A stretch of DNA of 64,000 bases from Chordicoccus furentiruminis (GTDB taxonomy: Bacteria; Bacillota; Clostridia; Lachnospirales; Lachnospiraceae), in contig NZ_CP048829.1 in the NCBI RefSeq assembly GCF_019355395.1, forward strand, positions 2,645,001 to 2,709,000, read 5' to 3'. Made by a program: the position numbers and the translations under genes. Shown piece by piece: positions 42,537-63,365 of this stretch (positions within the stretch are counted from its first letter, which is position 1; each line of letters opens with the position of its first letter). Below the pieces are notes generated by a model. That model searched no databases, had not been told where the DNA came from, and saw nothing but the letters and a program-made list of their open reading frames with translations.

Positions 42537-42565
42537 CGGGGAACATTTACAAGGAGGATTATCTG

Positions 42566-43780: not shown

Positions 43781-43887
43781 GGAAACAGAGATCAGGTTGC
43801 CGGACATTACATTGGCTGATGTTATTGCCATCAGGTCTATGAAGTGGCCTAGTGGCATTTTTGCAGGCGACAAGCAACAACGCGTCG

Positions 43888-43903: not shown

Positions 43904-43937
43904 AAGGCGCTCATGAAGACAGGAAAGGAGAAGGAGG

Positions 43938-44042
43938 ATGAACGGACTTACAGAGAAGCAGGCAAGAAGCTGCAGAAGACTGATGATCTATTCCAGAGAG
44001 GTATTTATCACCAGCATGATGAACCTTATCTGGGGCTGGTAA
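43938..44042 (+). CDS. Small 34-residue protein
   Basis: A short frame with an excellent AGAAGGAGG ribosome site four bases before ATG 43938. It reads MNGLTEKQARSCRRLMIYSR and ends MMNLIWGW, with its stop overlapping the ribosome site of the next gene. The basic first half and hydrophobic end suggest a small membrane-associated peptide. Supported by spacing and ribosome site only. Confidence 0.45.
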   Translation: MNGLTEKQARSCRRLMIYSREVFITSMMNLIWGW

Positions 44043-44054
44043 GGAGGTGCCTGC

Positions 44055-45502: not shown

Positions 45503-45692
45503 AAAAATACACACTCCTTTTCAGATAAACAGTTGACGGTAAGAACAATCACCATGTGTTGTTCGTTATCATCCTGAAAAGAATGTGCGTTTCCAATAAG
45601 ACCATATTTTTTTGTTCGGTGGTTACTGTAACACAGACAGGGAGAAAGTGCAATGAAAAACATTTACAGAACGTAAGAAAGGAGGAAGGCAG

Positions 45693-46775
45693 ATGAGTGA
45701 AGTCGCGGACGCTACCCAGATTGTGGTCGTGGCAGGCAAGGCAATTTACCTTCTCGGGAAGATCAGTCTGAAAGCGGCGATCCAGTTTGCGAAGCTGATC
45801 AATACGATCCGTCTTTCGAAATGGAAGGGGAAGGCCCGTCTTGGCAGGCTGCGGGCGATCAAGGGCGATGACATGATGTACGTGAACGTCGGGAGCGAGG
45901 ACAAGAAGGAACTGAAGAAGATCCAGAAGGAAATGAAGCAGCATGGAATCCTGTTTGCGAAGATGCCGGACCTGTGCGGAGGGGATGGCCGTACCCAATA
46001 CGCCATTGCTGTTTCGGATGCTCCCAAGGTGAGAGCTCTTCTGATCGACCATGCGATGGGGCCTTATAAGGACACTTATCTGGGGATGCTCAGTGAGAAG
46101 GATTACCTCTCGACAGCTTTTAACAGAAACGGGGAACTGACACCTGAAGCGCAGGACCTGTCAAAGTCAGTGCCGGACCCATTTACCGAAAAGAAGGAGA
46201 GGACTTCGGAGAAAACGGTGCAGTATTCCAGAAACATGGAGGCTCCCGAGCAGCAGGTGGCGGACTTGAAAGAGGCATTTGGGGATGTCCGGGTCCGTAT
46301 GCGTGATCTGGACTGCCAGGGACTTCAGCAGCAGTACCAGTGGATCAGCGGGCCGCCGGTGGAGGTGAGGAAGAACTTTGCCGAGTACCGGATCGACCAG
46401 AACCGGACCGTATTCATTCCAGTTAAGGATGCAGTGCTGCCGGGCAAGGGATTCAGCGAAAAGAATCTTGGTGCGGCGCTTTTCCGTGACCGGGCTTATA
46501 CGGTGACAGACTTTCGGACAGCTACTTTCCAGACACTGGCAGGACCGGTTGTGATCGGGCTGGTGAAGGAGGCGGCTTTGAACAGAAATTCCGGTCAGAC
46601 GACGGTCGGGTCCAGAGAGATGACCCATGAGCAGAGTCGTGATCAGAATCGAGATCAGACTACCGGACCAAGCCACGGAGGCCTTGAAGGACCGACCAGT
46701 GCCCTGGAGAATCTGAGCAGCCTTCTGAACAGCGGCGCAAAGCAGGAACCGTCGCCTTTTGAGAAGAAGCTGTGA
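45693..46775 (+). CDS. PcfB/DUF3801-family conjugation protein
   Basis: The 360-residue protein starts with a helical, partly hydrophobic region (QIVVVAGKAIYLLGKISLKAAIQFAK) and the PcfB/DUF3801 segment GDDMMYVNVGSEDKKELKKIQKEMKQHGILFAKMPDL. A second domain (about 190-300) and a disordered tail follow. PcfB proteins sit beside the VirD4 coupling protein and help bring the relaxosome to it. AAAGGAGGAAGG precedes ATG 45693, and VirD4 follows by 19 bases. Confidence 0.8.
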   Translation: MSEVADATQIVVVAGKAIYLLGKISLKAAIQFAKLINTIRLSKWKGKARLGRLRAIKGDDMMYVNVGSEDKKELKKIQKEMKQHGILFAKMPDLCGGDGRTQYAIAVSDAPKVRALLIDHAMGPYKDTYLGMLSEKDYLSTAFNRNGELTPEAQDLSKSVPDPFTEKKERTSEKTVQYSRNMEAPEQQVADLKEAFGDVRVRMRDLDCQGLQQQYQWISGPPVEVRKNFAEYRIDQNRTVFIPVKDAVLPGKGFSEKNLGAALFRDRAYTVTDFRTATFQTLAGPVVIGLVKEAALNRNSGQTTVGSREMTHEQSRDQNRDQTTGPSHGGLEGPTSALENLSSLLNSGAKQEPSPFEKKL

Positions 46776-46794
46776 GGAAGGAGGATGAGAGAAC

Positions 46795-48879
46795 ATGCAG
46801 AATCCCAAACGGAAACTGAACGTGATCTTCTTTCTCTGCTTCCTTCCTGTGGCGGTTTACCTTGGCTACTGCATCGGGCTCATGTACGGAAATGAGGTTA
46901 GGCTGGATAATCTGAAACCGCTTTTGTTTCACTACCTGCTTCACTCATTTCCACTGCGGGTCACTCCGTGGACATGGAAAGCCATCCTGATCTGCGGAAT
47001 CATCTGGTTTGTCATTTTCCTGAGAGTGACATCAATGGACCGGGATGTGAAGCCGGGAACAGAGTACGGGACAGCCAGCTTCGGCACCTGCAAAGAGGTA
47101 AACAGAAAGCTGGCGGACCCGGACCCTGCAAATAACAAGATTTTGTCCCAGAACCTGCGGATCAGCCTGGATACCCACAGGACAGGGCTGAATAACAACG
47201 TCATCATCATCGGCGGGTCCGGCGCAGGCAAGAGCTTCCGGCTGATTATGCCCAACATCCTGGCCGGGGCTCGAAGCTCCCTGGTGATCACAGATCCGAA
47301 ATCCGAACTCCGGAGAGCACTTGCCAACAGTCTTGAGATGGAAGGCTACCGTATCGTTTCCTTCAACCTTGTCGATATGGACGATTCGGATGGGTATAAT
47401 CCCTTCGCTTATATCCGCTCGGACAATGACATCATCAAGCTGGTCACCAACATGATGAACAATACAAGACCCAAGGACGCAAAGGGCGGGGATCCCTTCT
47501 GGGATTCCGCTCTTTCCCTGTACCTGCAGGCAATCATGTCCTACGTCTGGTATGAATGCCCGAAGCATGGGAAGCCGGCGACCATTCGCGAGATGATGGA
47601 TCTGCTGAACAAAGCGAGGGTAGCGGAGAAAGCAGGAGACCTGTCGGAGTTGGACCAGATGATGGAAGTGCTTCCCGATGACCATCCGGCCAGGGTGGCA
47701 TACCTGAAAGTGCGGAGCGGTGCCAAGGACACGATCCGGTCAATCATCATTTCCGCTCATGCGAGACTTGCCTATCTTCAGAACCCGAAGATTCTGAAGA
47801 TCCTGGACCATGATGATATCGACATCCGGGCAATCGGCGAAGGAATCTATGAGAACCCGGACCGGAAAACGGCCCTGTTCTGCATCATCCCGGACAACGA
47901 CAAGTCCTACAGCTTCCTGATAGGTCTCCTCTATACTCAGATCTTTCAGGAACTGTACTATATCGCAGATTTCAAGTATGGCGGGGCACTGCCGATCCAT
48001 GTGGCATTCTGGATGGACGAATTCGCAAATACACCGCTTCCGGATGGCTTCACAGAGATCATTTCCACCATGCGAAGCAGGAACATGTCCGCCAATATCA
48101 TTCTCCAGAATCGAGCGCAGCTGCAGGCCCTGTTCAAGGACACCTGGCAGGCCATCATCGGCAACTGCGATACCATGATCTACCTTGGAGGAAATGAACC
48201 TGAGACGCATAAGTACATGACGGAGATGCTGGGTAAGTATACGTTGGGCAAGCGTTCTTCAAGTGAATCTTTGGGAAGCAAAGGATCAGCAAGCAGCAAC
48301 TTTGATGTGGTCGGCCGTGAGCTGATGACGCCGGATGAGGTCCGCAGGATGGATAACGAGAAGGAATTGGTCTTCATCCGCGGCTGCAACCCAATTATGG
48401 ATGACAAGTTCCATACACTCGAGCTGCCGGAATTCATCGCATCGTCGGCATTGGGACCGTATGTGAGCGAGCGGAAACGGAAGTCCCAGGAAGAGAAGGA
48501 TGAGATCCATTTCTATATCGATGCGGAGGGCGAAGATGCAGACTGCGAGTCGTATTTCTACCAGATCGAGCAGTACATGGGAGTCTTCAGGCAGTCCAGG
48601 ATATTCGATAAGCTTGATAATCTTGAAGGAAGATACCTGGCAGGGACTCAGATGCTGGGCTCTTTCCTTCACAAGTATTCAAATGGTCAGGTGGAAGCAT
48701 ATCCTGTTTTCTCGCTTGAGAATCCAGACCGGGTGTTTGCAGGTGGCCAGCAATTGATCCGCTATCCGATCTGCGGCTATCTGGAAGACGGGAAGATTAC
48801 CCTTGGGAAAGAAGAGGAATGGGATGATCTGTTCCAGAAGAGAAATGAAGTGATGAATGTAGAAGAGGCGGATCTTTAA
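46795..48879 (+). CDS. VirD4/TraG-type coupling protein
   Basis: The 694-residue protein has two N-terminal membrane spans (about 8-30 and 60-80), Walker A GGSGAGKSFRLI near residue 142, and Walker B FWMDEFANT near residue 402. The VirD4 motif ELRRALANSL and the late QNRAQLQALF segment are also present. It docks the relaxase-DNA complex at the membrane channel and pumps the strand by ATP hydrolysis. The C-terminal 150 residues (about 545-694) lack known motifs and may select substrates. GGAAGGAGG precedes ATG 46795. Confidence 0.95.
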   Translation: MQNPKRKLNVIFFLCFLPVAVYLGYCIGLMYGNEVRLDNLKPLLFHYLLHSFPLRVTPWTWKAILICGIIWFVIFLRVTSMDRDVKPGTEYGTASFGTCKEVNRKLADPDPANNKILSQNLRISLDTHRTGLNNNVIIIGGSGAGKSFRLIMPNILAGARSSLVITDPKSELRRALANSLEMEGYRIVSFNLVDMDDSDGYNPFAYIRSDNDIIKLVTNMMNNTRPKDAKGGDPFWDSALSLYLQAIMSYVWYECPKHGKPATIREMMDLLNKARVAEKAGDLSELDQMMEVLPDDHPARVAYLKVRSGAKDTIRSIIISAHARLAYLQNPKILKILDHDDIDIRAIGEGIYENPDRKTALFCIIPDNDKSYSFLIGLLYTQIFQELYYIADFKYGGALPIHVAFWMDEFANTPLPDGFTEIISTMRSRNMSANIILQNRAQLQALFKDTWQAIIGNCDTMIYLGGNEPETHKYMTEMLGKYTLGKRSSSESLGSKGSASSNFDVVGRELMTPDEVRRMDNEKELVFIRGCNPIMDDKFHTLELPEFIASSALGPYVSERKRKSQEEKDEIHFYIDAEGEDADCESYFYQIEQYMGVFRQSRIFDKLDNLEGRYLAGTQMLGSFLHKYSNGQVEAYPVFSLENPDRVFAGGQQLIRYPICGYLEDGKITLGKEEEWDDLFQKRNEVMNVEEADL

Positions 48880-48904
48880 CAGATTTACAGGAGGAGGGTC
48901 AGGC

Positions 48905-49441
48905 GTGAATAATCTTCAGTATCTGACAGAGAAGGATCTTGAATATTTCAGAAACAAGCAGAAAGAGGGAGAACCGGTGCGGATTATCTATCTTGATTCT
49001 GAAACGCTGGACAAGATCAGTTTTGATGATATCGACAGGATGGAGAAAGAAGCAAGGGCAAAGACCGGGGAACAGCTGACGACGGAGGAGATGGAGCGAT
49101 GGCTGAAAGATTGCGGAGCTGTCATGGAAGCAGAAAAAGCGGAGGAGAAGATGAAGGCAGAAAAACAGGCAGCAGAGAAAGCTGAGCATGAGAAAACTGC
49201 TGGACGGAAGACTGCCGATCAGAAGGGAGCCGGGCCCTCCGCAGATGTATCAAAACGCATCCTGGACATCATTAAAGAGGGGAAGCTAAGCGCGGGCCAG
49301 ATCAACATCATCGTCCAGGCAATCCAGAACGGCTTTAACGAAGATGAGCTGGAGTATCTCTACTCCCTGACGATGGACAGTGAGCAGATGACCCGCGAAT
49401 ATGAACGAATCAGGAAGGAGAAAGCTGATGGCAAAGAATAA
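48905..49441 (+). CDS. Helical conjugation accessory protein
   Basis: The 178-residue protein starts at GTG 48905 behind GGAGGAGG. It has a short alpha/beta start (YLTEKDLEYFRNKQ), a charged Ala/Lys/Glu helix (about 75-115) and a C-terminal helical domain SAGQINIIVQAIQNGFNEDELEYLYSLTMDSEQM. The last domain resembles the end of the AT-hook protein at 40621, which suggests a shared binding partner. It overlaps the small gene behind it. No family name can be given. Confidence 0.6.
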   Translation: MNNLQYLTEKDLEYFRNKQKEGEPVRIIYLDSETLDKISFDDIDRMEKEARAKTGEQLTTEEMERWLKDCGAVMEAEKAEEKMKAEKQAAEKAEHEKTAGRKTADQKGAGPSADVSKRILDIIKEGKLSAGQINIIVQAIQNGFNEDELEYLYSLTMDSEQMTREYERIRKEKADGKE

Positions 49442-49568
49442 GGACATCCGGGAAGAGCTTTCGGAAAAGTACGGCATCACAGACGAAGGGGACATCGTAT
49501 CCCTTACGGATTTGGAGATGCGGGAGGAGATCCTTCCGGAAGGTCATTCGGAAGAAGGGAAACGATGA
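49428..49568 (+). CDS. Small 46-residue acidic protein
   Basis: A short frame starting at ATG 49428 inside the end of the preceding gene, with GGAG seven bases upstream. It reads MAKNKDIREELSEKYGITDE and ends GHSEEGKR. The four-codon overlap and the ribosome site support coupled translation. It is the last gene of this conjugation block before the fourth cargo insertion. No family recognised. Confidence 0.5.
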   Translation: MAKNKDIREELSEKYGITDEGDIVSLTDLEMREEILPEGHSEEGKR

Positions 49569-49652
49569 GGCAATGCTTTGTAGTATACTGGTGGTGATTC
49601 GAAAAGAATAATGTTTATGGAAACCTGTTAAAACAGAAAAACGGAAAGATCA

Positions 49653-50216
49653 ATGAAGAAGCTTAAGATTACATTTAATGCTCCGGTGACACTTGGCTTT
49701 GCACTTGCCAGCCTGGTTGTATTGGGGCTGAATATCCTTACCAGGGGACGCAACAATTCGCTACTGTTCTCGACTTATCATTCATCGCTGTTGTCTCCGT
49801 TGACCTACCTAAGATTCTTCACTCATGTGCTGGGACATAGCGGATGGCAGCATTATGCGGGAAATATGATGTACATCCTGCTCCTAGGACCTATGCTGGA
49901 AGAGAAGTATGGCTCGAAGAAAATCGGTTCTGCCATATTGATCACCGCAGCCGTGACAGGAGTTGTCAATTACATTTTCTTCCCCAATACTGTCCTTTGC
50001 GGCGCCAGCGGTGTCGTGTTTGCGTTCATTCTGCTGACTTCCTTCACAGGATTCCATGACGGGGAAATCCCGCTCAGCTTTATTCTGATTGCAATTATCT
50101 TCATCGGACAGCAGGTCGTTGATGGAATCTTTGTGAGGGATAACGTGTCCAACCTGTCACATATCATCGGCGGCATCGTTGGATCTGTAATCGGATACAA
50201 CGTGAACAAGAGGTAA
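49653..50216 (+). CDS. Rhomboid-family intramembrane serine protease (cargo 4a)
   Basis: The 187-residue protein has six membrane spans and the rhomboid catalytic elements. These are HxxxN-type HYAGNMMYILLLGPMLEEKYGS, the nucleophile Ser in CGASGVVFA (near residue 118), and the base His in NLSHIIGGIVGS (near residue 170). Rhomboids cut single-span proteins inside the membrane. It starts a four-gene cargo block with its own short upstream gap (49569-49652). Its target might be any of the exported proteins of the element, but that is only inference. Confidence 0.88.
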   Translation: MKKLKITFNAPVTLGFALASLVVLGLNILTRGRNNSLLFSTYHSSLLSPLTYLRFFTHVLGHSGWQHYAGNMMYILLLGPMLEEKYGSKKIGSAILITAAVTGVVNYIFFPNTVLCGASGVVFAFILLTSFTGFHDGEIPLSFILIAIIFIGQQVVDGIFVRDNVSNLSHIIGGIVGSVIGYNVNKR

Positions 50217-50221
50217 GGGTC

Positions 50222-51001
50222 ATGATCGCGAACTATCATATGCATACCTGGCGATGCAATCATGCTACAGGCAACGAGCGCGAATATATCGAAGCGGCAA
50301 TCGGACACTATCAGATCATAGGGTTCTCGGACCACACCCCGTACCCTTTTCCAGATGGGCTGGTTGATCCGGATAAGATGAGGATGAATCAGCTTGAGGA
50401 TTATGTGGATACCATCCTGAAGCTCAGGGAGGAATATAAGGATGATATTGAGATCCACCTTGGGCTTGAGGTAGAATATTATCCGGCATATTTCGATGAA
50501 CTTGTCAGGTATGCTTCCCGGTTTCCGATTGAGTACTTTCTGCTGGGGCAGCACTGGCTGGGTAACCGGTTCGGAGAACCATCATCTTTTGCAGAAACAA
50601 AGGATGAAAAGCTTTTGGAGCGGTATGTTACACAGGTGATTTGTGCGATGGAGACGGGATGTTTTACTTATCTGGCCCACCCCGATGTTCTTCACTTCAC
50701 GGGAGATCCGGAGGCCTATGATTTCTGGATGAGAAAGCTCTGCAAAATGGCTAAACGTATGCAGATGCCCATGGAGATCAACCTGCTCGGAATAACAACA
50801 CAACGTAATTATCCGAATCCCGCTTTCTGGAAGATCGCAGGAGAGGAAGGCTGCACCGCGATATTTGGAGCAGATGCCCATAGAGCAGATTTTGTGTGGA
50901 ATCCTGAAGGGGTAAAAATAGCTGAGCAGATTGCGGCGGAGAATCATCTTCGGGTACTTCAAGCAGTGGAACTGAACAATCCGTTCAAGAAAATACCATG
51001 A
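50222..51001 (+). CDS. PHP-domain phosphatase, HisK/histidinol-phosphatase-like (cargo 4b)
   Basis: The 259-residue protein has the PHP metal motifs: YHMHTWRCNH at the start, GFSDHTP near 37, GLEVEYYPAY near 83, TYLAHPDVLHF near 145, and the late GADAHRADF near 220. This is the layout of histidinol-phosphatase-type PHP enzymes, which use a trinuclear metal site to remove phosphate. There are no histidine-synthesis genes nearby, so the true substrate may be another phosphoester. It follows the rhomboid gene by five bases. Confidence 0.88.
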   Translation: MIANYHMHTWRCNHATGNEREYIEAAIGHYQIIGFSDHTPYPFPDGLVDPDKMRMNQLEDYVDTILKLREEYKDDIEIHLGLEVEYYPAYFDELVRYASRFPIEYFLLGQHWLGNRFGEPSSFAETKDEKLLERYVTQVICAMETGCFTYLAHPDVLHFTGDPEAYDFWMRKLCKMAKRMQMPMEINLLGITTQRNYPNPAFWKIAGEEGCTAIFGADAHRADFVWNPEGVKIAEQIAAENHLRVLQAVELNNPFKKIP

Positions 51002-51015
51002 GGTAGTGAATAAAG

Positions 51016-51576
51016 ATGGGGAATCAGGCTGACTGCATCACAACACATTCCGGAATCCATATGAACCCGCTGGATCCGAAACCGGAAGATTTCCGGATCG
51101 AGGACATTGCGCATGCTCTGCCTCTGATCTGCCGTGGAAATGGTCATGTGAAGACTTTTTTCTCCGTGGGGCAGCATTGTATCAACTGTGCGCGGGAAGC
51201 GGAAGCTTTGTCTCTTCCGGACCGGATGATCCTGGCCTGCCTGCTTCACGACGCTTCCGAATGTTATATGTCGGATGTTCCGAGACCTTTCAAGAGAAAC
51301 CTTCCGGGATACCGAGAAGCGGAAGATCATCTGCTTACCGTCCTGTATACGAAATTCCTTGGATCAAATCTGACAGAGGAAGAATACCTGCAGATGAAGA
51401 GGATTGATAATGCCATGCTCTGGTACGATATGCATGAACTCTTGAATGAGGACATCGGACCGAAGCCGGAGATACATATCGAAATTTCCTATGGATGGAG
51501 ACCATTTCAGGAAGTGGAGAAGGAATATCTGGGAATCTATCACGCTATATCCGGTGCAACATTTCCGCCTTCCTGA
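51016..51576 (+). CDS. HD-domain phosphohydrolase (cargo 4c)
   Basis: The 186-residue protein has the HD-domain ligands in order: His in VGQHCINCAREA, the HD pair in CLLHDASECYMSDVP (near residues 76-90), and a late Asp in MKRIDNAMLWYD. It resembles YfbR-type nucleotide phosphohydrolases, which remove phosphate from deoxynucleoside monophosphates. It follows the PHP gene at 15 bases. The pair could act on related phosphorylated compounds, but no pathway is evident. Confidence 0.85.
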   Translation: MGNQADCITTHSGIHMNPLDPKPEDFRIEDIAHALPLICRGNGHVKTFFSVGQHCINCAREAEALSLPDRMILACLLHDASECYMSDVPRPFKRNLPGYREAEDHLLTVLYTKFLGSNLTEEEYLQMKRIDNAMLWYDMHELLNEDIGPKPEIHIEISYGWRPFQEVEKEYLGIYHAISGATFPPS

Positions 51577-51658
51577 CTGTATACATAGTGAAGACAAGAG
51601 AAAGGGAGCTGCAGACGGGCCTGGCAAAAATCATAGAACAATCAGTGGAGGAAATATC

Positions 51659-52423
51659 ATGAAGGATTTCGTAAGGAAGATGATGGTTATGGCATGCGCG
51701 GCATCTCTGGTAATGGCTCCGGCATCATTTGCAGAGACGGAAGCTGCATCGGAAGATGTTCAGATCATTGGAGGCGCGGATGCTCCTACGTCTATCCTGC
51801 TTGTTGGCGGATGGGAGATCAACAGCGGAGCACTTTCCTTCGATGATGAAGAAAACAAAGATGCAAAGGAAGCCTTTGAAAAGGCAACAGACGGGCTGGA
51901 AGGATACGAGTATGAACCGATCGCAGTTCTCGGAAGCCAGGTTGTTGCTGGAACAAACTACAGCATCCTATGCAGAGGAACAGTTATCGTTCCGGACGCC
52001 GAACCGGTCTTCGAGATCATTACGGTATATGAAGATCTCGATGGCAACGCGGAGATCACCGGCGACAAGGAAATCTTCAGCGGGGACAGTGATGCCCAGG
52101 GTGGATATATCGTTAATGAAGGCGATGTGAGCTTTGAAAAAAATGAGGATGTGAAGACTGCCTTCGATAAGGCGATTACCTTCGATAAGGCACTCGAGTC
52201 TCTGGAGGGGGCAGATTATGAGCCGGTCGCCTATCTTGGCAGTCAGACTGTAACTGGCATCAATTACATGGCACTGATGCGTGTAACGGCAGTAGTGCCG
52301 GAATATGATCTGGTGACGGTTTATCAGGATCTCGATGGTAACGCAGAGATCACGGATATGCAGACCGTAACGATCGATGCTGAGGATGCAGTATGTGAGA
52401 CCGAAACAGAAACGGAAGACTGA
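51659..52423 (+). CDS. Secreted protein with two cystatin-like repeats (cargo 4d)
   Basis: The 254-residue protein has a clean signal peptide (cleavage after MAPASFA-ET). The start of the mature chain, IIGGADAPTSILL, resembles the conserved IIGGADGPT segment of sodium-pumping decarboxylase beta subunits. Two repeats of about 95 residues follow. Each has a helix (KEAFEKATDGLEG; KTAFDKAITFDKALES), then YEPIAVLGSQVVAGTNY or YEPVAYLGSQTVTGINY, then an ITVYEDLDGNAEIT-type hairpin. QVVAG is the protease-binding loop of cystatins. It may block cysteine proteases outside the cell. ATG 51659 follows GGAGG. Confidence 0.8.
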   Translation: MKDFVRKMMVMACAASLVMAPASFAETEAASEDVQIIGGADAPTSILLVGGWEINSGALSFDDEENKDAKEAFEKATDGLEGYEYEPIAVLGSQVVAGTNYSILCRGTVIVPDAEPVFEIITVYEDLDGNAEITGDKEIFSGDSDAQGGYIVNEGDVSFEKNEDVKTAFDKAITFDKALESLEGADYEPVAYLGSQTVTGINYMALMRVTAVVPEYDLVTVYQDLDGNAEITDMQTVTIDAEDAVCETETETED

Positions 52424-52473
52424 CGACTGAACAGATATGGAAGAATGAAGATACGAAAGCAGATTGGCAGCAT

Positions 52474-52503
52474 GCCTCCGGAGGAAATGTCCGGAGGCTT
52501 TTT
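52474..52503 (+). terminator. Strong terminator at the cargo 4 / ArdC junction
   Basis: GCCTCCGGA and TCCGGAGGC form a perfect 9-bp stem with a 7-base loop, followed by TTTTT. It closes the fourth cargo block, 24 bases before the ArdC-like gene. Confidence 0.85.
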
Positions 52504-52526
52504 CATGCCCAGAAAGGGGGAAGACA

Positions 52527-53501
52527 ATGCCGGGAGCATTTGAAATCGTAATGGATGAGCGGAAGGCTCTGGTTGACAAAATCATCGGAATGATGAAACA
52601 GGGATATTTCTTCAACAAAGAGGAGTGGGACCGGGCGTCGCTCCGGCCGCAGAATCCTTTGTCAAAGGTACAGTACAAAGGAGGCAACCGTTTGCGGCTG
52701 ATGGCCATGGTCGTCGAACATGGTTATACGGACCCGCGATGGGCAACCGCAAGGCAGTATTCGGAGAAGGGTTATTTCATCAAGAAGGGAGAACATGGCG
52801 TTCTTTGTGAGAAATGGATCTTCGAGAAACAGAAGAAAGTGAAGGATCAGAACGGAAATGTATCATTCGAGACCGTGCAGCTGGAGAGGCCGCAGGTCTC
52901 TTTTTTTCGGGTATTCAACGCCGAGCAGGTGCAGGATTTCCCAAGTTTCAGCCGAAATGAGTGTCCGGAGCCGGAGATTGATACGATTATCAACCGGATC
53001 ATCGATACAAGCGAGTGCCCGATCCATGAGATTGCACAGGACAGATCCTTCTACAGCCCAGCTTCAGATGAGATTTATCTGCCGCTCCGTAGCCAGTTCA
53101 AGGACCAGACCAGTTTCGCAAAGACACTTCTGCACGAACTATCGCATATGACCGGGGCACCGTCGAGACTGAACCGTAAATTTGGAGGACCATTTGGCTC
53201 CGAAGGCTATGCGAAGGAAGAACTCAGGGCGGAGATAGGGGCACTTTTCACGGAGACAGATCTTGGGATTCCGCTGTCGGGAGAACACTACGAAGATCAT
53301 TCAGACTATCTACGTTCCTGGATCGGTGTTATCCAGAACGATTACAACGAATTTTTCCGTGCCTGTGCTGATGCGGAAAAGATTTCCGAGTGGCTGATCG
53401 CAAACTACACCAGAAAATACGAAATTTCTGCACCAAGCGTTGAGGAGATTTCCAAAAAAACTCTAATCTGTGAAATTAAAGAATCGGAACGGAGGAGATA
53501 A
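52527..53501 (+). CDS. ArdC-like antirestriction/zincin protein
   Basis: The 324-residue protein has an N-terminal ArdC-N type single-strand DNA-binding domain (about 15-130, with ARQYSEKGYFIKKGEHGVLC and VSFFRVFNAEQ). A zincin-like metallopeptidase domain follows, with HELSH near residue 203 and the third-ligand region YAKEELRAEIGALF. ArdC protects incoming single-stranded plasmid DNA from restriction. It is common near the end of conjugative elements. ATG 52527 follows AGGGGGAAG. It is followed by four bases and the HTH gene. Confidence 0.88.
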   Translation: MPGAFEIVMDERKALVDKIIGMMKQGYFFNKEEWDRASLRPQNPLSKVQYKGGNRLRLMAMVVEHGYTDPRWATARQYSEKGYFIKKGEHGVLCEKWIFEKQKKVKDQNGNVSFETVQLERPQVSFFRVFNAEQVQDFPSFSRNECPEPEIDTIINRIIDTSECPIHEIAQDRSFYSPASDEIYLPLRSQFKDQTSFAKTLLHELSHMTGAPSRLNRKFGGPFGSEGYAKEELRAEIGALFTETDLGIPLSGEHYEDHSDYLRSWIGVIQNDYNEFFRACADAEKISEWLIANYTRKYEISAPSVEEISKKTLICEIKESERRR

Positions 53502-53504
53502 ATC

Positions 53505-53834
53505 ATGCCAAAGAAAACAAATAATATGAACCTTAAGGAATTCAGATCCATTGAAGATATGCAGCAGACAGCTTTTCTACTGCCCCGGGAAGTAGGCCAT
53601 CTTTTAAGAATTGGGGAAAACAGTCTCTATAAACTCCTTTCCTCCGATGATTGTCCATTTCCGGTCATGCGGCTTACTTCACAGACAATACGTATACCTA
53701 CAAAACAGTTCTTTAACTGGTATTATGGAGCATTCAATCTGGAAAAACAGCAGTATATCATGGCGAATGCGAAAATGCCGGCTCATCAAGTTGAGCAGCC
53801 AGCTGAGAAAACGATGGCCTGTCCCGTACGTTGA
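53505..53834 (+). CDS. Excisionase-like winged-helix DNA-binding protein
   Basis: The 109-residue protein has a compact MerR/excisionase-type helix-turn-helix (FLLPREVGHLLRIGENSLYKLLSSDDCPFPVMRLTSQTIRIPTKQF, given only for position 27-72). Such small proteins act as excisionases that bend DNA at the attachment site. An integrase gene would be expected next, but none is present in the window. GGAGGAG precedes ATG 53505. It is the last gene of the conjugation block. Confidence 0.75.
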   Translation: MPKKTNNMNLKEFRSIEDMQQTAFLLPREVGHLLRIGENSLYKLLSSDDCPFPVMRLTSQTIRIPTKQFFNWYYGAFNLEKQQYIMANAKMPAHQVEQPAEKTMACPVR

Positions 53835-54858: not shown

Positions 54859-56448
54859 ATGAGTATGGATCAATCAGCGAACGAATATGCTTTTACCGTT
54901 TCTCAGTCTGTTTTCGATGCTCTTTCATTGTTCGGGCGGAGCAAAAACTCCCGAATCTATATGTCCTGCTTTCTGTATATTGCGGGACAAGTCGAATCAG
55001 AGCCGTCGAGGACGGTTCCATTTGATGCATTGAGGAATGGGGTCTCGGATCTGCTTCGCCAGTTCAATATATCAGAGATCCTGAGAGATCTTTCAGAGGA
55101 CAACGGACCTGTTCTGGCAGATGAGGATATTTCCTCTCCGGAGAAAAAGCGTTTCGCTACATCCTATCGGATCCTGAATCTTCTCGAGAATCGCGGTCTT
55201 ATAAAAACTGTTATGGATTATGATGATACCGGAAGAAATCTGGTGTCCTATGTTCACATCCGTAGTATAGGCCGGGAACTGCTTACATTCCTAAAAAATA
55301 CAGCTGAACTGGACAAGCCATCGTTTAATGCCAGAAATTTTCTGAGTATGAGCGGAACAATGAAGGGTGTATATGGGAGACCGGAGGACGCACAGAATTA
55401 CGATAAGATCGACAGTGTATATGTCAGATTCAAGGAAGAACTAAACCATCTTGACAATTTCGCGGATGAGTTTGCCGACTTTGTTCAGGAGTATCAGAAT
55501 CGTGCAAAAGGGGGAGAACATATTGGCAATGCGGATTGGGTCAATCGGGTATTTAACTCGGAATACTTTAAGCAGTATATCATGATCTCGCAAAGCTCTG
55601 ATACACGTTTCGGCTACCTGGTCAATCTGCGGAAGGTTCAATCTGTCTCAAGGAAACTTCTGAAAGAAGAGAACAGACAGATTCTGGATGAGATTGTCAG
55701 GAAAAAAATAGATCAAGACAGAGCGATGTCTGTCTTTAATCCGGAAGTTGTTGAGGAGAGTGATCACGACCTGTATATCCGGCTGAACGTTGGGATACGC
55801 GAAAAACTCAGTTTTCTGGGATACCAGGCGGTTAAACAGTATAACCGGCGTTCTGAACGAATACGCAATGAAGTAGGTGTTCTGATCGGGAATGTCAGGG
55901 AGTGTGTGAATAATCTTTCCATGCATGGCATGCGCCTTTCCATATCAGGATACTTGAACAGAATGTTTCAGTATCTCAATGCAGGAAATGAGGTAGACGG
56001 AATTGTAAATCTAATTGGATATCCCGGCTTTCATGATGAATGCTCTCTAAAGGTACTGGAAACATTTTCCGGTGGCCAGTCGGATAAGATAGAAATACGA
56101 ACATATAACGATGAGGAAGTCCCTTACGATGACGAAAGCGATATTACTGCAGTCAATATGATTATGAGGAAGGTGTTTCAATCAACAAGTCAATGTCATA
56201 TCAGGGATATTCTATCATTAGATCCGGACAGGGGCGATTACAAGTGGGGAGTCGTTGAGACACTGAACAGAATTCTTTATTATGGTCATTTTGGCAGACA
56301 GGATCTGCAGGCAGAGAATCCTGATGCTGGTGTCTGCTACTATCTGGTGCAGAATGGTGTAGGTACGGTTGTAAGGGAGACGGAAGATGGGAGTTATCTG
56401 TATCCGGATGTGATGATTGCAGCTGTGGAGGATCGTGAAGATGGATGA
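54859..56448 (+). CDS. jetA: Wadjet subunit JetA (kleisin/MukF-like)
   Basis: The 529-residue protein is the first gene of the set. It has an N-terminal winged-helix region (ATSYRILNLLENRGLIKTVMDYDDTGRN) and a long helical middle, with NHLDNFADEFADFVQEYQNRAK and a helix-rich segment to about 360. A C-terminal winged-helix-like part ends DGVMIAAVEDR-type. This is the size and order of JetA, the kleisin-like partner that bridges the JetC heads in type I Wadjet, which senses and cuts plasmid DNA. Its end overlaps jetB by eight bases. The assignment rests mainly on gene order with JetB, JetC and JetD. Confidence 0.85.
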   Translation: MSMDQSANEYAFTVSQSVFDALSLFGRSKNSRIYMSCFLYIAGQVESEPSRTVPFDALRNGVSDLLRQFNISEILRDLSEDNGPVLADEDISSPEKKRFATSYRILNLLENRGLIKTVMDYDDTGRNLVSYVHIRSIGRELLTFLKNTAELDKPSFNARNFLSMSGTMKGVYGRPEDAQNYDKIDSVYVRFKEELNHLDNFADEFADFVQEYQNRAKGGEHIGNADWVNRVFNSEYFKQYIMISQSSDTRFGYLVNLRKVQSVSRKLLKEENRQILDEIVRKKIDQDRAMSVFNPEVVEESDHDLYIRLNVGIREKLSFLGYQAVKQYNRRSERIRNEVGVLIGNVRECVNNLSMHGMRLSISGYLNRMFQYLNAGNEVDGIVNLIGYPGFHDECSLKVLETFSGGQSDKIEIRTYNDEEVPYDDESDITAVNMIMRKVFQSTSQCHIRDILSLDPDRGDYKWGVVETLNRILYYGHFGRQDLQAENPDAGVCYYLVQNGVGTVVRETEDGSYLYPDVMIAAVEDREDG

Positions 56449-57148
56449 AAAAAACGAAAGCTGGAGAGAGTCGAACAGAGAAGCGTTCGAGGCGCTTCAG
56501 AGGCTGAAAAAAAGGACTTTTCTATATGATTCAAAAAACAAGACCGAGCACGAGGCTTTTAATGCGATTCTGCAGAACAGAGAACTGATTGAATCAGCTC
56601 TGTTGTGTGATGACTGCGGACTTATGATAAACCAGACATATGGTGTCGCCGGAATTGTCGGCTTGTCCTCTGAGCCAAACATGCTTCGGAAAAAGTTTGA
56701 TGCGGAAGAGATGAGAACTTATATTGCTCTTCTTCAGCTCTATCTTGATAAAGATGTCGCAGCCGGATCAACGCATGTTGTAGATTGTTCCTACAATGAC
56801 TTTCAGCTGAAGATAAGGGACATCTCAGACGATCCGAGCCTAATCGGACGAAATGGTCTGTACGGATCAATCAAGGCAATTGAAAAGAGACTCATTCCAT
56901 TTGCGGGATACTCGATGATTCGTCTGAACCAGAAGGATCGGAGAATCGAGATTTATCCTGGAATCATGTTCTGCATGGACCGGGAGACACTTGAAGAACG
57001 GTGCAGGGATATCATTGATCCCTGGCTTGAGAAGAGAAGTGAAGAAGAGAACCGTCAGGAGAAAAAACCTCCAAAATCAGACGAAGATGGGGCTTCAGCA
57101 ATGCAGCTTTCATTGTTTGATGATAATCCTCCGGGGAAGGGAGAATGA
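56441..57148 (+). CDS. jetB: Wadjet subunit JetB (DUF4194, MukE-like)
   Basis: The 235-residue protein has the DUF4194 pattern: a start with FEALQRLKKRTFLYDSKNKTEHEAF, then GVAGIVGLSSEPNMLRKKFDAEEMRTYIALLQLYL, and a winged-helix part with IKAIEKRLIPFAGYSMIRL. It ends in a charged tail. JetB is the MukE/MksE-like winged-helix partner of JetA. ATG 56441 lies inside the jetA end and its stop overlaps the jetC start, so translation of the four genes is coupled. Confidence 0.88.
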   Translation: MDEKNESWRESNREAFEALQRLKKRTFLYDSKNKTEHEAFNAILQNRELIESALLCDDCGLMINQTYGVAGIVGLSSEPNMLRKKFDAEEMRTYIALLQLYLDKDVAAGSTHVVDCSYNDFQLKIRDISDDPSLIGRNGLYGSIKAIEKRLIPFAGYSMIRLNQKDRRIEIYPGIMFCMDRETLEERCRDIIDPWLEKRSEEENRQEKKPPKSDEDGASAMQLSLFDDNPPGKGE

Positions 57149-57611
57149 AGATGAAACTGAATCGCATGTTTGTAAAAAACTATATGTCCATTCGGTCCAT
57201 GATTATCCCCGATTTTCAGAGCATTACGCTTTTCTGTGGAGAAAACGGCTCCGGCAAATCAACGATCGCTGACCTGCTCGGCATCATCCTTTTTAATCAG
57301 GATGTACTGGGTCTGACAAGCGACAATAAGAGAGAGATTCGGACCGGAGTGAGATGGGAAGTGGAAGGAGTTCCGCAGAGGACCGGCCGAATTATCAGTT
57401 ACATCATTATCGAGCTTCTCGACGATGACGGTCTGTACATTCTTCAGGGTGTCCGGATCATTTCCTCAGGAAATGATACACCGGCAAGGACATTCTTTTC
57501 GGTCATAGGAAAACCGCTTGAGATGATCGGGGCACGTGGCAATAATCAGATGGCCCAGGATGAAGACATCTGCTATTCGGATCCGGATATCACGAAATAT
57601 ACTACGCATAC
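57145..57611 (+). pseudogene. jetC: Wadjet subunit JetC, 5' part, cut by ISL3
   Basis: The first 155 codons plus two bases of JetC, the SMC-like ATPase of Wadjet. It has the start MKMKLNRMFVKNYMSIRSM and Walker A GENGSGKST (about residues 32-40). The next codon is split by the insertion at 57612, and the frame stops inside the element at 57639, so the translated product is only about 165 residues. Joining base 57611 to 59383, with one copy of ACGCATAC removed, continues the frame as THT-AAFRDFFAQRKYN and gives an unbroken 1075-residue JetC. The gene is therefore broken only by the insertion. Confidence 0.9.
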
Positions 57612-57661
57612 GGGTCAATCACTTTTTCTGTGTGCTTGATGGTTACTGGTTACGTACGCCA

Positions 57662-57785
57662 CCCTTGACTGAACCTGTCAGAAACGCTGCGGCTTAAGTG
57701 CCGACGGTGAAGAACTCAAGAACAGCCTGCCTTCTTCACCATATCGGCTGCTCAGTATAGCGTTTCTGCCAGAACCCGCCAAGGG
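57662..57785 (+). other. Structured leader of ISL3 copy B (three nested stems)
   Basis: P1 pairs CCCTTG (57662-57667) with CAAGGG (57780-57785). P2 pairs CAGAAACGCT (57779 is not used; 5' arm 57679-57688) with AGCGTTTCTG (57759-57768). P3 pairs GCCGA with TCGGC (57744-57748) and GGTGAAGAA (57706-57714) with TTCTTCACC (57732-57740). Two smaller hairpins follow, CCCTGC/GCAGGG and AGGCTC/GAGCCT. Compared with copy A, several paired positions changed on both sides so that pairing is kept. Confidence 0.6.
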
Positions 57786-57958
57786 CAGGCCCTGCTTCGC
57801 AGGGTGGCTGTTTCTATGCCTCAGGCTCAGGAGCCTAAGAACAGCCTGCTTATAACACTTTGCACCTTTACACTTGAATAAAAGAAGGATCATCCTGTAA
57901 GGTTGTACGTATCATCCTGGCAAGATGAGATACCACAATCCAAAGGAGACCCTTCATC

Positions 57959-59371
57959 ATGCAGTATATCCGACCTGAGGCTGACGGACAACTCACATTT
58001 GCAGAATCAACAGATTTTTTGATGATTCCGTGCTGCCTGTATGGCTTCCATAATACGGAGACTACCGTTCATGAAGCGGTATCCGGCAGAAAAGTCTTCT
58101 GCTACCACGGTACGCTGGATGTCCCTCCGGAAGAAACGGTCTGTCCGGAGTGCGGCGCGAGGATGCATGTGAACCAGCATCCGGAGATCACTCTGCGGCA
58201 TCTTTGCATCGGCGGGAATCTCTCCAGTGTTGTGTTTCCGCATAACCAGTTTCGGTGTCCGGAATGCGGCGGGACACATTCCCAGTTCATCTCTTTTAAA
58301 GCGGATGGGCACCGGATCACGGAAGAACTGTACCAGTACACCCGGGATCTTTTGGCTCATGGAACATATACACTCAAGCAGGTTTCCGAGATCACCGGCC
58401 TTGGGAAAAACGTTGTCAAGGCAATCGATAAAAAGCGCCTGCAGGATGCGTATACGATTGACGGCAAAAAGCTGCGTAAGCCGGAACATAAGGCAAAGTT
58501 TCTTGGTATCGATGAGTTCAAGCTGCATAACGGGCACCGCTACGCTACGCACATCATCGACATGGAGCGCGGCCACGTCCTCTGGATCGGCCACGGCAAG
58601 AAGAAGCAGGTCGTCTACGACTTCATTGACCATGTCGGGATGGAGTGGATGGAAAGCGTAGAAGCTGTCGCCTGCGACATGAATTCCGATTTCCAGGAGG
58701 CCTTCGAGGAGCGCTGCGAATGGATCCAGCCGGTATTCGACTACTTCCACATCGTCAAAAACTTCAATGATAAGGTGGTCAGCGAAGTCCGGCGCGATGA
58801 GCAGAGACGGCTCACTGAAGAAGGAAACCTCGAAGCAGCCAGGGCACTCAAGCGCACCCGCTATATCCTTACGTCCAGCCGCTCGACCCTTCAGCGGAAG
58901 GATCAGGAAGCATCTGAGGGCAAAGTGTTGTCAAAGGGCGGCGGTCTCTTCAATAAGGAAGAGGTCATCCGGAAGTCCGGATATGAGGCAAAGTATGACG
59001 CGCTCCTTGCGGAAAACGAGCTCCTGTTCACGCTGGATCTCATCAAGGAGAAACTCAGCGAGGCGTACCGGCAGACCAGTGAAGTAGTCATGGCGGAGAT
59101 GATGACTGAGACCATAGATATCTGCTTCGCCACAGGGAACAGACATCTGCGGTGGTTCGGCCGCCTGATTGAAAACCACTTTGAAGGTATCATTGCCCAT
59201 GCGACTTACCGGATCTCAGCCGGAAAGATCGAAGGACTGAACAACAAGATCAAAACACTCAGGCGGCAGGGCTATGGCTATCCAGATGACGAATACTTCT
59301 TCCTGAAGATCTTCGACATCAGCCGTCGGGACTATGACCGGAACCCTGCATCACACAGAAAATGTGACTGA
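57959..59371 (+). CDS. ISL3-family transposase (copy B)
   Basis: The 470-residue protein has the same layout as copy A: zinc knuckles CPECG (twice), helix-turn-helix TLKQVSEITGLGKNVVKAID, DDE core from FLGIDEFKLHNGHRYATHIID, and the closing GKIEGLNNKIKTLRRQGYGY. It is full length and shows no frameshift, so it is probably active. AAAGGAG lies before ATG 57959. It differs from copy A at many positions throughout, so this is a separate member of the same group and not a recent duplicate. Confidence 0.96.
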   Translation: MQYIRPEADGQLTFAESTDFLMIPCCLYGFHNTETTVHEAVSGRKVFCYHGTLDVPPEETVCPECGARMHVNQHPEITLRHLCIGGNLSSVVFPHNQFRCPECGGTHSQFISFKADGHRITEELYQYTRDLLAHGTYTLKQVSEITGLGKNVVKAIDKKRLQDAYTIDGKKLRKPEHKAKFLGIDEFKLHNGHRYATHIIDMERGHVLWIGHGKKKQVVYDFIDHVGMEWMESVEAVACDMNSDFQEAFEERCEWIQPVFDYFHIVKNFNDKVVSEVRRDEQRRLTEEGNLEAARALKRTRYILTSSRSTLQRKDQEASEGKVLSKGGGLFNKEEVIRKSGYEAKYDALLAENELLFTLDLIKEKLSEAYRQTSEVVMAEMMTETIDICFATGNRHLRWFGRLIENHFEGIIAHATYRISAGKIEGLNNKIKTLRRQGYGYPDDEYFFLKIFDISRRDYDRNPASHRKCD

Positions 59372-59382
59372 GCCACGCATAC

Positions 59383-62143
59383 TGCAGCGTTCCGGGATTT
59401 TTTTGCACAGAGAAAATATAATGTCGAGTTCATCAATGATGAATATGCGATGAAGATGTACAAACAGTACATGATCAACTTGCTGACCAATCAAAGCCTG
59501 CAGGGAGCCAGGGGAAATAAATTCCAGAGCTTTATTAAAACTTCTATTTTGCCGAAGCCTACTGCTGTAACGATCGCAGGCGAGCGTAGGGAGCTTATTG
59601 ATCAGTACAAGGAAGCGAAGCGTGATTTTGATGACTATGAAGAGGAACGTTCTTTTTACGAAAGATACTGTAAATATTACACCGACTATGCGAAGAAAAA
59701 AGAAAAGGCAGATATTCTGGAACGCCTGACTCCCTATATCATCGATGAAGGAGCAGATACCCTCATTTCAACAAGCCAGACCAACATAGCTGCCGCTGAA
59801 AAGAAACTTGAATTGATTGGTAATGAGATTATCAGAATTCAGGCGGAGATAAGAGAGCTCAGGGCGAAGCGCGACAAGTTGATTGCATCGAACCAGGAGG
59901 AGCAGCAGCTGAAAGAGAAACTGGACAGCATCGAAAAAGAAAAGCTGCGTCTGGAAAAGTGCCAGGAAGAATATGAAAGATATGCAAGTATGGCCGATTC
60001 TCTGCTTGAGCTTATAGGCGAACAGAGAATTGATCCAGATGGAGCGATCGATACAGTCAGTAATCTATACAGGGTTTTTCAGAACCGGAAAGCAGAAGAA
60101 ACTTCAGAAGCGCGGCAGAGGAAGCAGGAGCTGGAAGAGGATCTGAATGAAAAAACGGACCGTCTTCATGAACTTCAGGGTGGAAGACCAGCCAGGGGAG
60201 ATGTGGCCTCCGCAATCAGAATACGTGATCTGATTAATGAAAAGTTTCAAAAAGAGGGAGTTGGTGAGGAAGTACATATTCTGTACGAGTGCATAGCCGG
60301 AGTGAAGGATGAAAAGTGGCAGCCGGCGATAGAAGTCCTTTTGGGACGTAATCTGTTTGGAATTGTCGTGTCGCCGGAAAACTACAGGCTTGCATGCGCG
60401 ATTCAACATGACTTCCGTACCGAAAGACGTGATTCCAGTACACTAATCCTGAAGACACGGCGGAGGAGCGTCAAACCTGTACAGAGAAGCGTCTATAGTG
60501 CACTCGAGATCACAGACAGTCATGCAGATGATTATCTCTACAGCACTTGCGGTGACTGTCTGATGGCAGAGACGAATGAGGAATATGTCTCCACGAAGAA
60601 CGCTCTTCGGATCAATGGACAGCACCAGAATGGCAATGGATCGTATTATCGTGAACAGGACCTTTCTCAGATGCGGCTGTTCATCGGGGAGGAGGTGCGG
60701 GAACGCGAACGAGAAAAGCTCAGAGTAGAGATTGCGGAGACTGAGGCCGCCATTCAAACAGTCAAAGACAAGATGGCTTCTGCGGAAAGGCTCTGCAAAC
60801 ACGCGGACAGCATATACATGCAGATGACCGGATGCCGCATTCGGGAGACAGATGCCTTTGCGGATCTCGCTCTGGTAGAAGAAGACTATCAGAGAACACT
60901 GCAGGAGTACGAACAGATCCTGAAAGGAGAAGCCCACCGCATATTTGAGGAGCGGAAGAAGGAAATAGAGCAGAGGAGCGAAGAACTATCGGAAAAACTC
61001 CGGAAACAGCAGAATGACAGAACTGAAACGGAGACGCGCAAGCAGGGGGATATCAATAATCTGAATTTTGCGAAGAGCAGGAAAGCAGAAAATAAAAAGA
61101 CGATGGAGGGACTTCCTGAATTGAATATTCTTCCGGAGAGTGATATCTCCGAGGTCCTGTTATGGGCGGGACGGTTCAATCCTAATATAGACAGCCTGCT
61201 TGAAAGTGAAATGGAATCGCTGAAGAAAATTGCTGGTGAGAGCTGTGAAGTCGTCCGGGACGTATGGGAGACAATGCCGGTTCACGTAAAGGAGAGGACC
61301 TCCCTGTTTCTGGTAATGGACAATCCGGAGAGCCAGGATAATTACCGGTATATCGATGAACAGCTGAAGAAGATGGATGTCAGGATGGACCAGCAGAAGC
61401 GTGAGAAGATGCAGGCGCTGATTGAAAGCCTTGAAAAACAGTTTACAGGGCTGCTGGACACAATGGGAGAGGACGAAGCGAATGCCAGACGCATGCGGAA
61501 TCAATATAATCGGTTTATTCAGAAATATCCAATTGGCGGGATCACGTACTGGATCGGCGACATGAACGATATTATGAGTGAAGACGCCGATATTATCCGC
61601 GCTGCAAGAGATATTTTCAACGGGGAGATGAGTGATCTGGTTCAGGCTGTGATCGAGAAGCTGAAGAAGAAAGCTGAAACAGTACAGGGAGCGGATTTTG
61701 ACCGTATTTTTGATTATACATCCTATATTACCTGCCCGCTGATGTACAGGGGGAATGATCCTGCCGCACGTGCAAGAAATCTGGACAACAACAGTTCGAT
61801 GGGATCAAACGGACAGCAACTGACGCTGAGGTATTTCCTGTATATTGGGACAATGGCATGCCAGGTTTATTCTGACGATTCGCTTCGTATTATCCTCTGC
61901 GATGAAGCAACAAAAGGAATGGATGATGAAAATGCCCGAAGCTTTGTCGGCATGCTGCGCGATGCAGACGTGCAGACCATTATGTTCAATTACAGTCAGG
62001 CTTTGAACCCATATGTGGACAGGCTGTATGTTGTTTCCACACCGAAATCCGGTCCATATAGACATCAGATGAAGATAGTGCCGGGGGTTCGAAAGTCGGG
62101 AAAAGAGGGTGTGGAGGATGACAGACTACAGAAAGCGAATTGA
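59383..62143 (+). pseudogene. jetC: Wadjet subunit JetC, 3' part, cut by ISL3
   Basis: This 920-codon remainder holds the long coiled-coil arms (about 59590-60150 and 60640-61450, broken by a hinge-like domain between them) and the C-terminal head. The head has a signature-type GSNGQQLTLRYF and Walker B IILCDEATKGMDDENARS. It has no Walker A of its own, so translation from the internal ATG at 59450 would give an inactive ATPase half. Its stop overlaps jetD. The frame is otherwise intact, so precise loss of the element would restore the gene. Confidence 0.9.
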
Positions 62144-63365
62144 AGCGGCAGCGGTTCGCAAAGTATATCAAGGCCGCGGGGAAAATGTGTATCTGTCCGC
62201 TGCCAATATTGCTGATGCGGTGGGAGAACCTGATTATTCTGGAAAACGAAGCAATCTCCTCTCTATGGAAAGGAGAACCGCAATAAATGATGCCCTGAAA
62301 GAACTGGAATCAGCGGGGCTGCTGAAGCTGAAGCGGGTAAGAAATCCGCATGCAGTCGTCTATCGTGCGGATATCAGCAGAGAACAGGGCTGCCGACTCT
62401 ACGGCAGATACGGCTATACGGATCGGGAAGAGTCGGAACTTCTTCTCCAGTCTGAAATCAGGAAACTCCTGGAAAGCAGCAGTCTTATGCCCCAGACTAA
62501 AGCATATCTGCACAACATACTTCTGCGGCCATTTGGGAAAGACTCTGTGTGGATGAAAACAAAAAGCTTTGGATCTTCTGATATCGAGAATGGATTGCAG
62601 ATCATTAAGGGAGCAGATGCGGTGATCAGCAATGGCGAGCTGCAGCAAAATATCCTCGTCCGCAATCTGTCCGCATCTGTTTATGGGGGCTCCAAAACAT
62701 TTGAGCATTATGAAAGCAGGATCTGCACCGCGATCCGCAGAATTCTGATGAGTGATGAAGAGAAAGACTGGGACCTGTTATTAGATGAGGCCGAGCAGTC
62801 CGGGAAAAAAGTATATGAGCTATTCGGGGTATCAAAAAATCCGTTTTCAGAGACGATGAAAGGAAATGCCGAAATTACGACTCCGAATGGCACAATCCAT
62901 ACATGCGGCTGTTCCTATGCTTTCTTTTCCGATGAAGAGGCTAGCTATCTTCATATCAGGATCCGGGACAGCAAACTGATCACGATTGAAAACCTTACAA
63001 CATATAATGATTTTTCAGAACCGTCCACTCTAAAAGTCTATACCGGGGGAATGCCTTCTCCTTTTCTTCAGAGACTGCTTAAGCGAATTGCGGAAGATAA
63101 CCCGGACCTGACGATTTCTCACTGGTCTGATATCGATGTGGGAGGATTCAGAATTTTCCGATTAATCAGTGAGAGCACAGAGGGACGTGCCATTCCATAC
63201 CATATGGATATTGAGACAATTCAGAATGCAATTGCAAAACAGCCTCTTTCGGATTGGGACAGAGAGCATCTGGAGAGTTTCCGCCATAAGGGCTGTTTTT
63301 CGAAAACAGCGGAATATATGCTGAAGGAGGACGTTAAGGTAGAGCAGGAAAGTGAACGAATATGA
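62118..63365 (+). CDS. jetD: Wadjet nuclease subunit JetD (DUF3322/DUF2220, TOPRIM-like)
   Basis: The 415-residue protein has an N-terminal DNA-binding region (winged-helix-like, RRTAINDALKELESAGLLKLKRV) and a topoisomerase VI-A-like TOPRIM domain. TOPRIM acidic residues are visible in TIENLTTYND (Glu near 290) and HWSDIDVGGFRIF (DxD near 337). JetD is the nuclease that cuts circular DNA extruded by JetABC. It starts at ATG 62118 inside the end of jetC, behind GAGGGTGTGG. All catalytic residues are kept, so only JetC is lost in this operon. Confidence 0.9.
   Translation: MTDYRKRIEAAAVRKVYQGRGENVYLSAANIADAVGEPDYSGKRSNLLSMERRTAINDALKELESAGLLKLKRVRNPHAVVYRADISREQGCRLYGRYGYTDREESELLLQSEIRKLLESSSLMPQTKAYLHNILLRPFGKDSVWMKTKSFGSSDIENGLQIIKGADAVISNGELQQNILVRNLSASVYGGSKTFEHYESRICTAIRRILMSDEEKDWDLLLDEAEQSGKKVYELFGVSKNPFSETMKGNAEITTPNGTIHTCGCSYAFFSDEEASYLHIRIRDSKLITIENLTTYNDFSEPSTLKVYTGGMPSPFLQRLLKRIAEDNPDLTISHWSDIDVGGFRIFRLISESTEGRAIPYHMDIETIQNAIAKQPLSDWDREHLESFRHKGCFSKTAEYMLKEDVKVEQESERI

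Follow-up and report, generated by a model that had tools for sequence, protein, structure and literature searches.

Does the insertion sequence that interrupts a Wadjet plasmid-defence operon in Chordicoccus furentiruminis put that operon out of action, and does the cell thereby lose its defence against plasmids? The window analysed here is a stretch of 64,000 nucleotides of contig NZ_CP048829.1 (positions 2,645,001 to 2,709,000 of the forward strand), and the jetABCD operon in question occupies its positions 54859-63365. Wadjet consists of the JetABC complex, of the structural maintenance of chromosomes (SMC) type, together with the JetD nuclease, and the passage of PMC10586767 used here describes it as restricting circular plasmids of small and medium size, those below about 50-100 kb. 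We have found that the split operon is a Wadjet locus and, as it stands, not a working system, and that the same genome carries a second Wadjet operon. The explanation that we favour, at a probability of roughly 0.78, is that a divergent type I Wadjet, horizontally acquired, was recently struck when an ISL3-family element, which had lately multiplied in the genome, placed one of its copies there, while the second operon would keep plasmid restriction going and redundancy would let the insertion be tolerated.

The split operon is made up of four overlapping plus-strand genes in the order jetA-jetB-jetC-jetD (Table 1), with overlaps of 8 bp between jetA and jetB, 4 bp between jetB and jetC, and 26 or 35 bp between jetC and jetD, depending on the choice of start codon. 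No continuous jetC frame is present, as the element splits the gene. The 155 complete codons of the first piece contain no stop, and in the DNA as found this piece ends at a stop after eight element-coded codons (open reading frame [ORF] 57145-57639, 164 aa). When the element and one duplication are taken out, the remaining 467 and 2761 nt add up to 3228 nt, or 1076 codons, in frame, encoding 1075 residues; the 919 residues of the C piece are followed by its sole stop, which is terminal. A preliminary description of this DNA had proposed the Wadjet gene order, a precise 1763-bp ISL3 insertion at codon 156 with a perfect 8-bp duplication ACGCATAC, and a restorable JetC frame. The insertion proved correct to the base, the arithmetic of the restored frame holds with no internal stop in either piece, and the gene order is confirmed by the frames together with PADLOC matches to JetB1, JetC1 and JetD1 and, for JetA, by a profile.

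Table 1. Features of the split Wadjet operon, the inserted element and the stretch upstream (window coordinates)
Feature	Position	Strand	Details
jetA	54859..56448	+	529 aa, strongly diverged, kleisin-like; matches the JetA profile built from 69 loci
jetB	56441..57148	+	KITE/MukE-like subunit, DUF4194; PADLOC JetB1, Pfam, profile
jetC 5' piece	57145..57611	+	155 complete codons with Walker A; cut inside codon 156; PADLOC JetC1
Target-site duplication ACGCATAC, left copy	57604..57611	+	perfect 8 bp
ISL3-family insertion sequence	57612..59374	+	1763 bp, one of five identical genome copies
ISL3 transposase	57959..59371	+	470 aa; Pfam PF01610 DDE_Tnp_ISL3, E 1.5e-48
Target-site duplication ACGCATAC, right copy	59375..59382	+	perfect 8 bp
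jetC 3' piece	59383..62143	+	end of N lobe, coiled coil, hinge, head lobe with signature and Walker B; PADLOC JetC1
jetD	62109..63365	+	418 aa, Toprim nuclease, TIEN and DIDxGG motifs; PADLOC JetD1, Pfam JetD_C
Stretch with conjugative-module genes	6157..53834	+	primase-helicase, TrbL, TraG-like ATPase, MobA/VirD2 relaxase, coupling protein, ArdC-like protein

The inserted element has the traits of the ISL3 family, namely a DDE_Tnp_ISL3 transposase, inverted ends (matching at 20 of the first 23 positions) and an 8-bp duplication, which is the usual length in this family. The whole genome, a single contig of 3,267,205 bases, contains five copies, which show 100% identity along their 1763 bp, and each is flanked by a direct duplication, exact and 8 bp long at four of the copies and 9 bp long (AGAAAAAAT) at the fifth. 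Five identical units of this size, each with a direct duplication, exclude chance, and the identity of the copies argues that the jump was recent. Judged by these sequences, the insertion into jetC is thus a recent event, as had been supposed, which agrees with the other jet frames being open; no relative close enough to provide a clock for the age of the insertion was found. At an expectation value (E) of 1e-50, relatives of the element with 70-72% identity were present in two other genomes of the genus, and the element was not found in plasmids. The genome as a whole is rich in ISL3 elements, as 25 ISL3 transposase matches were obtained, 24 of them over the family cut-off, with several sets of equal score.

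The position of the cut within the protein was read from profile alignments, in which residues 3-124 of the N piece correspond to residues 11-139 of the template and residues 16-886 of the C piece, with a probability of 99.9, to residues 171-1072. On the JetC of a relative (locus L085), modelled with a mean predicted local distance difference test score (pLDDT) of 84.3 and a predicted template modelling score (pTM) of 0.48 and containing a long coiled coil from about residue 214, the N piece extends to residue 134 and the match of the C piece begins at residue 192, which places the cut in the N-terminal head lobe. According to this model, the cut site lies after the Walker A sheet and before or among the last strand and helices of the lobe. 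The element separates the half of the ATPase head with Walker A from the half that carries the Walker B and signature motifs. A full-length JetC SMC subunit would not be made, and jetD would probably also be hit by polarity; the split operon would no longer restrict circular DNA, and it is itself very probably dead.

Breaks of this kind were also looked for in relatives. A scan of genome contigs with a JetD alignment gave at least 536 stretches encoding a relative, and among the best 80, which were kept, 68 had one JetC frame covering more than 88% of the profile. Contiguous JetC frames broken without an element were seen at two loci (L116 and L161), where a draft-assembly error is possible, JetC was cut at a contig end in five, and five had no JetC frame; JetD lay near a contig end in four of the latter, and the fifth (L119), with 8 kb of upstream DNA, had room for one. 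An element inside JetC was found in none of the 70 loci that could be judged. This undercounts such breaks, since the profile derives for the most part from these very loci and since insertion sequences are places where draft assemblies are apt to be interrupted. At locus L050 (3815-7205), too, jetC is in pieces, with frames that overlap or adjoin and no element present, and a draft-assembly error is again possible.

It had also been concluded that Wadjet is off in this genome, and this claim did not survive a search of the genome with the JetD_C family. Two matches were obtained, one of them belonging to a second, complete type I operon at genome positions 2587536-2594368 (4536-11368 of locus L034), about 105 kb upstream of the split one. 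It consists of four open frames, overlapping or nearly touching, with all four jet genes in order, and was matched in PADLOC by JetA1 (4e-31), JetB1 (5.7e-38), JetC1 (5.9e-139) and JetD1 (8.7e-103); Walker A is present in its JetC and the Toprim motifs in its JetD. At the level of the genome the loss of Wadjet is therefore unsupported, and, to judge from these genes, the cell is probably not undefended against plasmids. The open frames and motifs of the second operon suggest that plasmid restriction would persist through it, and the insertion may have been tolerated largely through the redundancy of the two Wadjets.

The two operons share the same four genes in the same order, the second one being complete, and differ widely in sequence, as their JetC proteins are 26-28% and their JetD proteins 28% identical over parts, and JetA and JetB gave no BLAST match between them. 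The second operon has a relative in another member of the genus (L048), in which JetC is 80% and JetA, JetB and JetD are 69-78% identical. JetD_C was found, at E 0.001, in 11 of the 42 genomes of the genus, this one included, with 10 over the family cut-off. Two further members of the genus, G720 and G701 (L052 and L054), have in common a 9.36-kb Wadjet-bearing stretch of 98.7% DNA identity, possibly a recent transfer.

That the genes of the split operon are those of a type I Wadjet is best seen in jetB, jetC and jetD. The JetB product matched PADLOC JetB1 (1.6e-9) and Pfam DUF4194 (1.6e-10), reached a profile probability of 97.2 (query 56444-57148) and has the character of a KITE/MukE-like subunit. 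Both pieces of JetC matched PADLOC JetC1, the N piece at 6.1e-11 (query ORF 57145-57639) and the C piece at 1.1e-26 (query ORF from 59450), and the SMC motifs, Walker A, the signature (recognized by eye) and Walker B, are all present, divided between the two. When a profile was made of 26 fetched JetC relatives, with the window's own pieces excluded, its top matches were the solved JetC chains 9qxt, 8as8 and 8dk2. JetD matched PADLOC JetD1 (1.1e-50) and Pfam JetD_C (1.8e-11) and has a C-terminal Toprim domain with acidic motifs, and an alignment of 10 JetD sequences contains the TIEN and DIDxGG motifs. No PDB chain was found with the JetD sequence alone; the profile of the 10 sequences matched no JetD chain in PDB and did match the A subunit of topoisomerase VI (1d3y, 8.1e-6).

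JetA is far more diverged, and gave no match in PADLOC, Pfam or PHROGs. Two PDB searches gave candidates that were set aside, the sole match of the JetA sequence being unrelated (E 0.48) and the JetA alignment finding only MarR-type regulators, at E of at least 0.0015, on the N-terminal winged-helix part. A profile was therefore built from the JetA-position frames of 69 loci, taken from the JetD scan and from loci of the genus and family, the second operon of this genome included. The product of 54859-56448 matched it over residues 16-153 with a probability of 89.8 (E 1.8e-6), and the controls stayed at or below 0.4 for eight shuffled versions and at 0.3 against the JetB profile. A fold model made with a 36-row alignment was weak overall (mean pLDDT 60.5, pTM 0.34) with a confident N-terminal domain, and in Foldseek its nine best PDB matches, with low template modelling scores of 0.14-0.20 by query length, were all entries for MukBEF or MukEF; three reached an E of 0.001 or better. 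Since this model was built on the JetA alignment it may be biased, and the MukF nature of the matched chains is taken from the titles of the entries, so that the profile test weighs more. This product is likely JetA, a MukF-like kleisin, going by the profile, and the assignment of the four genes to JetA-JetD can thus be upheld, with model matches for B, C and D, the profile for JetA, and a weak fold model that points to MukBEF-type subunits. With known type I Wadjet (JetABCD, also MksBEFG) the split operon shares the four-gene order, the overlaps, the matches to JetB1, JetC1 and JetD1, and the Toprim and SMC head motifs; it differs in a JetA that falls below all the library models used, in a JetC that, where it aligns with its best BLAST relatives, is about 25% identical to them, and in the split of jetC by the element.

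Where this divergent operon came from was approached through its composition and its relatives. The G+C content of the jet genes is 45.8%, that of the stretch 6157-53834 is 51.0%, and that of the downstream histidine kinase, GerM-like and ComEC-like genes is 59.3%. The split JetC was found only in its own genome in the samples of the genus (E 1e-5, 1 of 42 genomes) and of the phylum (E 1e-20, 1 of 398), and in the family sample (E 1e-10) in 3 of 299 genomes, its own included, the two others being 24% identical. Frame-level BLAST gave weak matches to several JetC proteins of the genus. A single-sequence scan of wider genome contigs confirmed no relative, a search of viral contigs for the pattern gave no match, and plasmids gave one weak match. 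Both the gap in G+C content and the lack of a close JetC relative in the genus, family and phylum samples fit acquisition from elsewhere, and these sequence data point to a distant source for the split operon.

Upstream of the operon lies a stretch with conjugative-module genes, whose calls come from a scan of 19 of its frames (17 and a further two). The two main integrase families, PF00589 and PF07508, had no match inside the window. Direct repeats of at least 15 bases shared by the 29 kb searched upstream with either 53835-54858 or 63366-64000 were looked for and not found; the same search gave two inverted matches, one of 15 and one of 17 bases. The ArdC-like gene has a match in only one other of the 42 genomes of the genus. 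With no integrase of these two families and no flanking direct repeat found, we do not claim the jet operon as cargo of the conjugative stretch. On the downstream side, all nine genus loci examined have the kinase gene next to the GerM-like gene, and the latter occurs in 39 of the 42 genomes. The histidine kinase frame begins at ATG 63833, and the frames of nine relatives in the genus reach 17-70 residues further upstream (window 63780-63840); a stop, seen by eye, stands close before a part that still resembles the relatives and may mark the boundary of an island. Within the conjugation-gene stretch we also noted a 2853-aa surface protein (8855-17416), in which a thioester domain accompanies 15 SpaA stretches; the stretch further contains a reverse transcriptase frame (25136-27052) and, on the minus strand, an IS66 transposase (36594-38045).

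Several points weigh against the view that the insertion was tolerated because a second Wadjet was there. That second operon may not be active, and as it resembles the split one only distantly, the two may differ in the targets that they recognize. Moreover, the hit in jetC is exceptional. Same-strand long frames stand at both edges of the jetC copy, with 155 codons from the ATG before it and at least 666 after it, whereas at the other four copies, which lack long frames on both sides, the longest stop-free runs are 36-54 codons at the left edge and 31-136 at the right. Two of these copies have edge runs of 136 and 134 codons, possible gene ends that matched no Pfam family, with same-strand runs across the element of at most 19 codons. 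Long frames thus flank the element on both sides at jetC and at none of its four other sites, and the hit in jetC may be one that was favoured and not just tolerated. The pattern is suggestive, but five sites are too few for a test.

It could be, therefore, as the preliminary description had raised as a possibility, that the insertion was selected, this Wadjet having harmed a circular intermediate, for example the circular form of the conjugative genes beside it or a plasmid entering the cell. Conjugation genes do adjoin the jet operon, and the singular place of jetC among the five copies lends this idea weak support. In Clostridium cellulovorans, according to the passage of PMC12287153 used here, jetABCD was among three spontaneous deletions in a mutant with better plasmid uptake, and its targeted deletion raised conjugation by about five orders of magnitude. 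That case and the present one have in common the loss of a native Wadjet in a Bacillota host, but there the loss was a deletion, the targeted one changing plasmid uptake, while here it is an insertion with a second operon remaining. The presence of a second, complete Wadjet weakens an argument from the protection of circular elements, even if that Wadjet could have another specificity or be inactive. Near the operon we found no integrase, no element ends and no circular form, and among only five insertions two besides that in jetC are touched at one edge by a frame, of 134 codons in one and 136 in the other. We therefore regard selection as unlikely. It is unlikely as well that the operon was a decaying relic, useless already before the insertion, for while its very diverged JetA and lack of close relatives would suit such a history, every other jet frame is still open and the active-site motifs remain in place. 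We think it rather improbable that a divergent Wadjet beyond the reach of the JetA models was acquired beside the conjugation genes by a cell already equipped with another Wadjet and then lost jetC preferentially, because the two Wadjets, or the new Wadjet and the conjugative element, coexist badly.

The perfect duplication and the in-frame arithmetic might also suggest a reversible switch, in which precise excision, proposed in the preliminary description as a way to regain the system, restores the operon in part of the population. The same picture would be given by any new insertion that duplicates its target within a gene, however, and the papers found on the ISL3 family and precise excision include, by their titles, none on defence against plasmids or phages, so that we hold such a switch to be very improbable. 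Least probable of all is a functional split JetC, whose N piece and a C piece begun at an internal ATG (59450 or another) would assemble into a head: the motifs survive and the cut falls in the N-lobe stretch between the sheet and the last strand and helices, unaligned in both profile matches, but no ribosome-binding site is apparent by eye before ATG 59450, a C piece from there is short by 22 further residues, and the judgeable relatives include no JetC split by an element.

The inactivation of defence genes by insertion sequences has already been published. The part of PMC10359306 used here describes the disruption of CRISPR-Cas by insertion sequences and, in a further 12 clusters of defence genes, IS1 and IS10; like the present case, these have an insertion sequence inside a defence gene, but there the elements are IS1 and IS10, and the word 'wadjet' is absent from that text. 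In Brevibacterium aurantiacum, as given in a passage of PMC6579920, ISBli2 and ISBli4 were found in a putative abortive phage resistance gene of which sister strains have intact copies. This, again, is an insertion in a defence-type gene, though not in a jet gene; JetABCD orthologues are noted in the same passage, which reports no disruption of them. Titles and the openings of abstracts that pair Wadjet with insertion sequences, transposases or excision show no element in a jet gene, and the same holds for the passages used of PMC6579920, PMC12342005, PMC12287153 and PMC10359306; from this we do not claim that none is in print.

We have described, then, an insertion that is real but ordinary, into a Wadjet operon that is unusually divergent. 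A second, complete operon elsewhere in the genome lessens the consequences of this insertion. The likely JetA of the split operon is missed by the Wadjet models used here, and operons of this kind may be undercounted. The locus offers a clean example of an insertion sequence breaking a plasmid-defence operon. A broken defence operon is not the same as an undefended genome, and the whole genome needs to be checked before the function is called lost.

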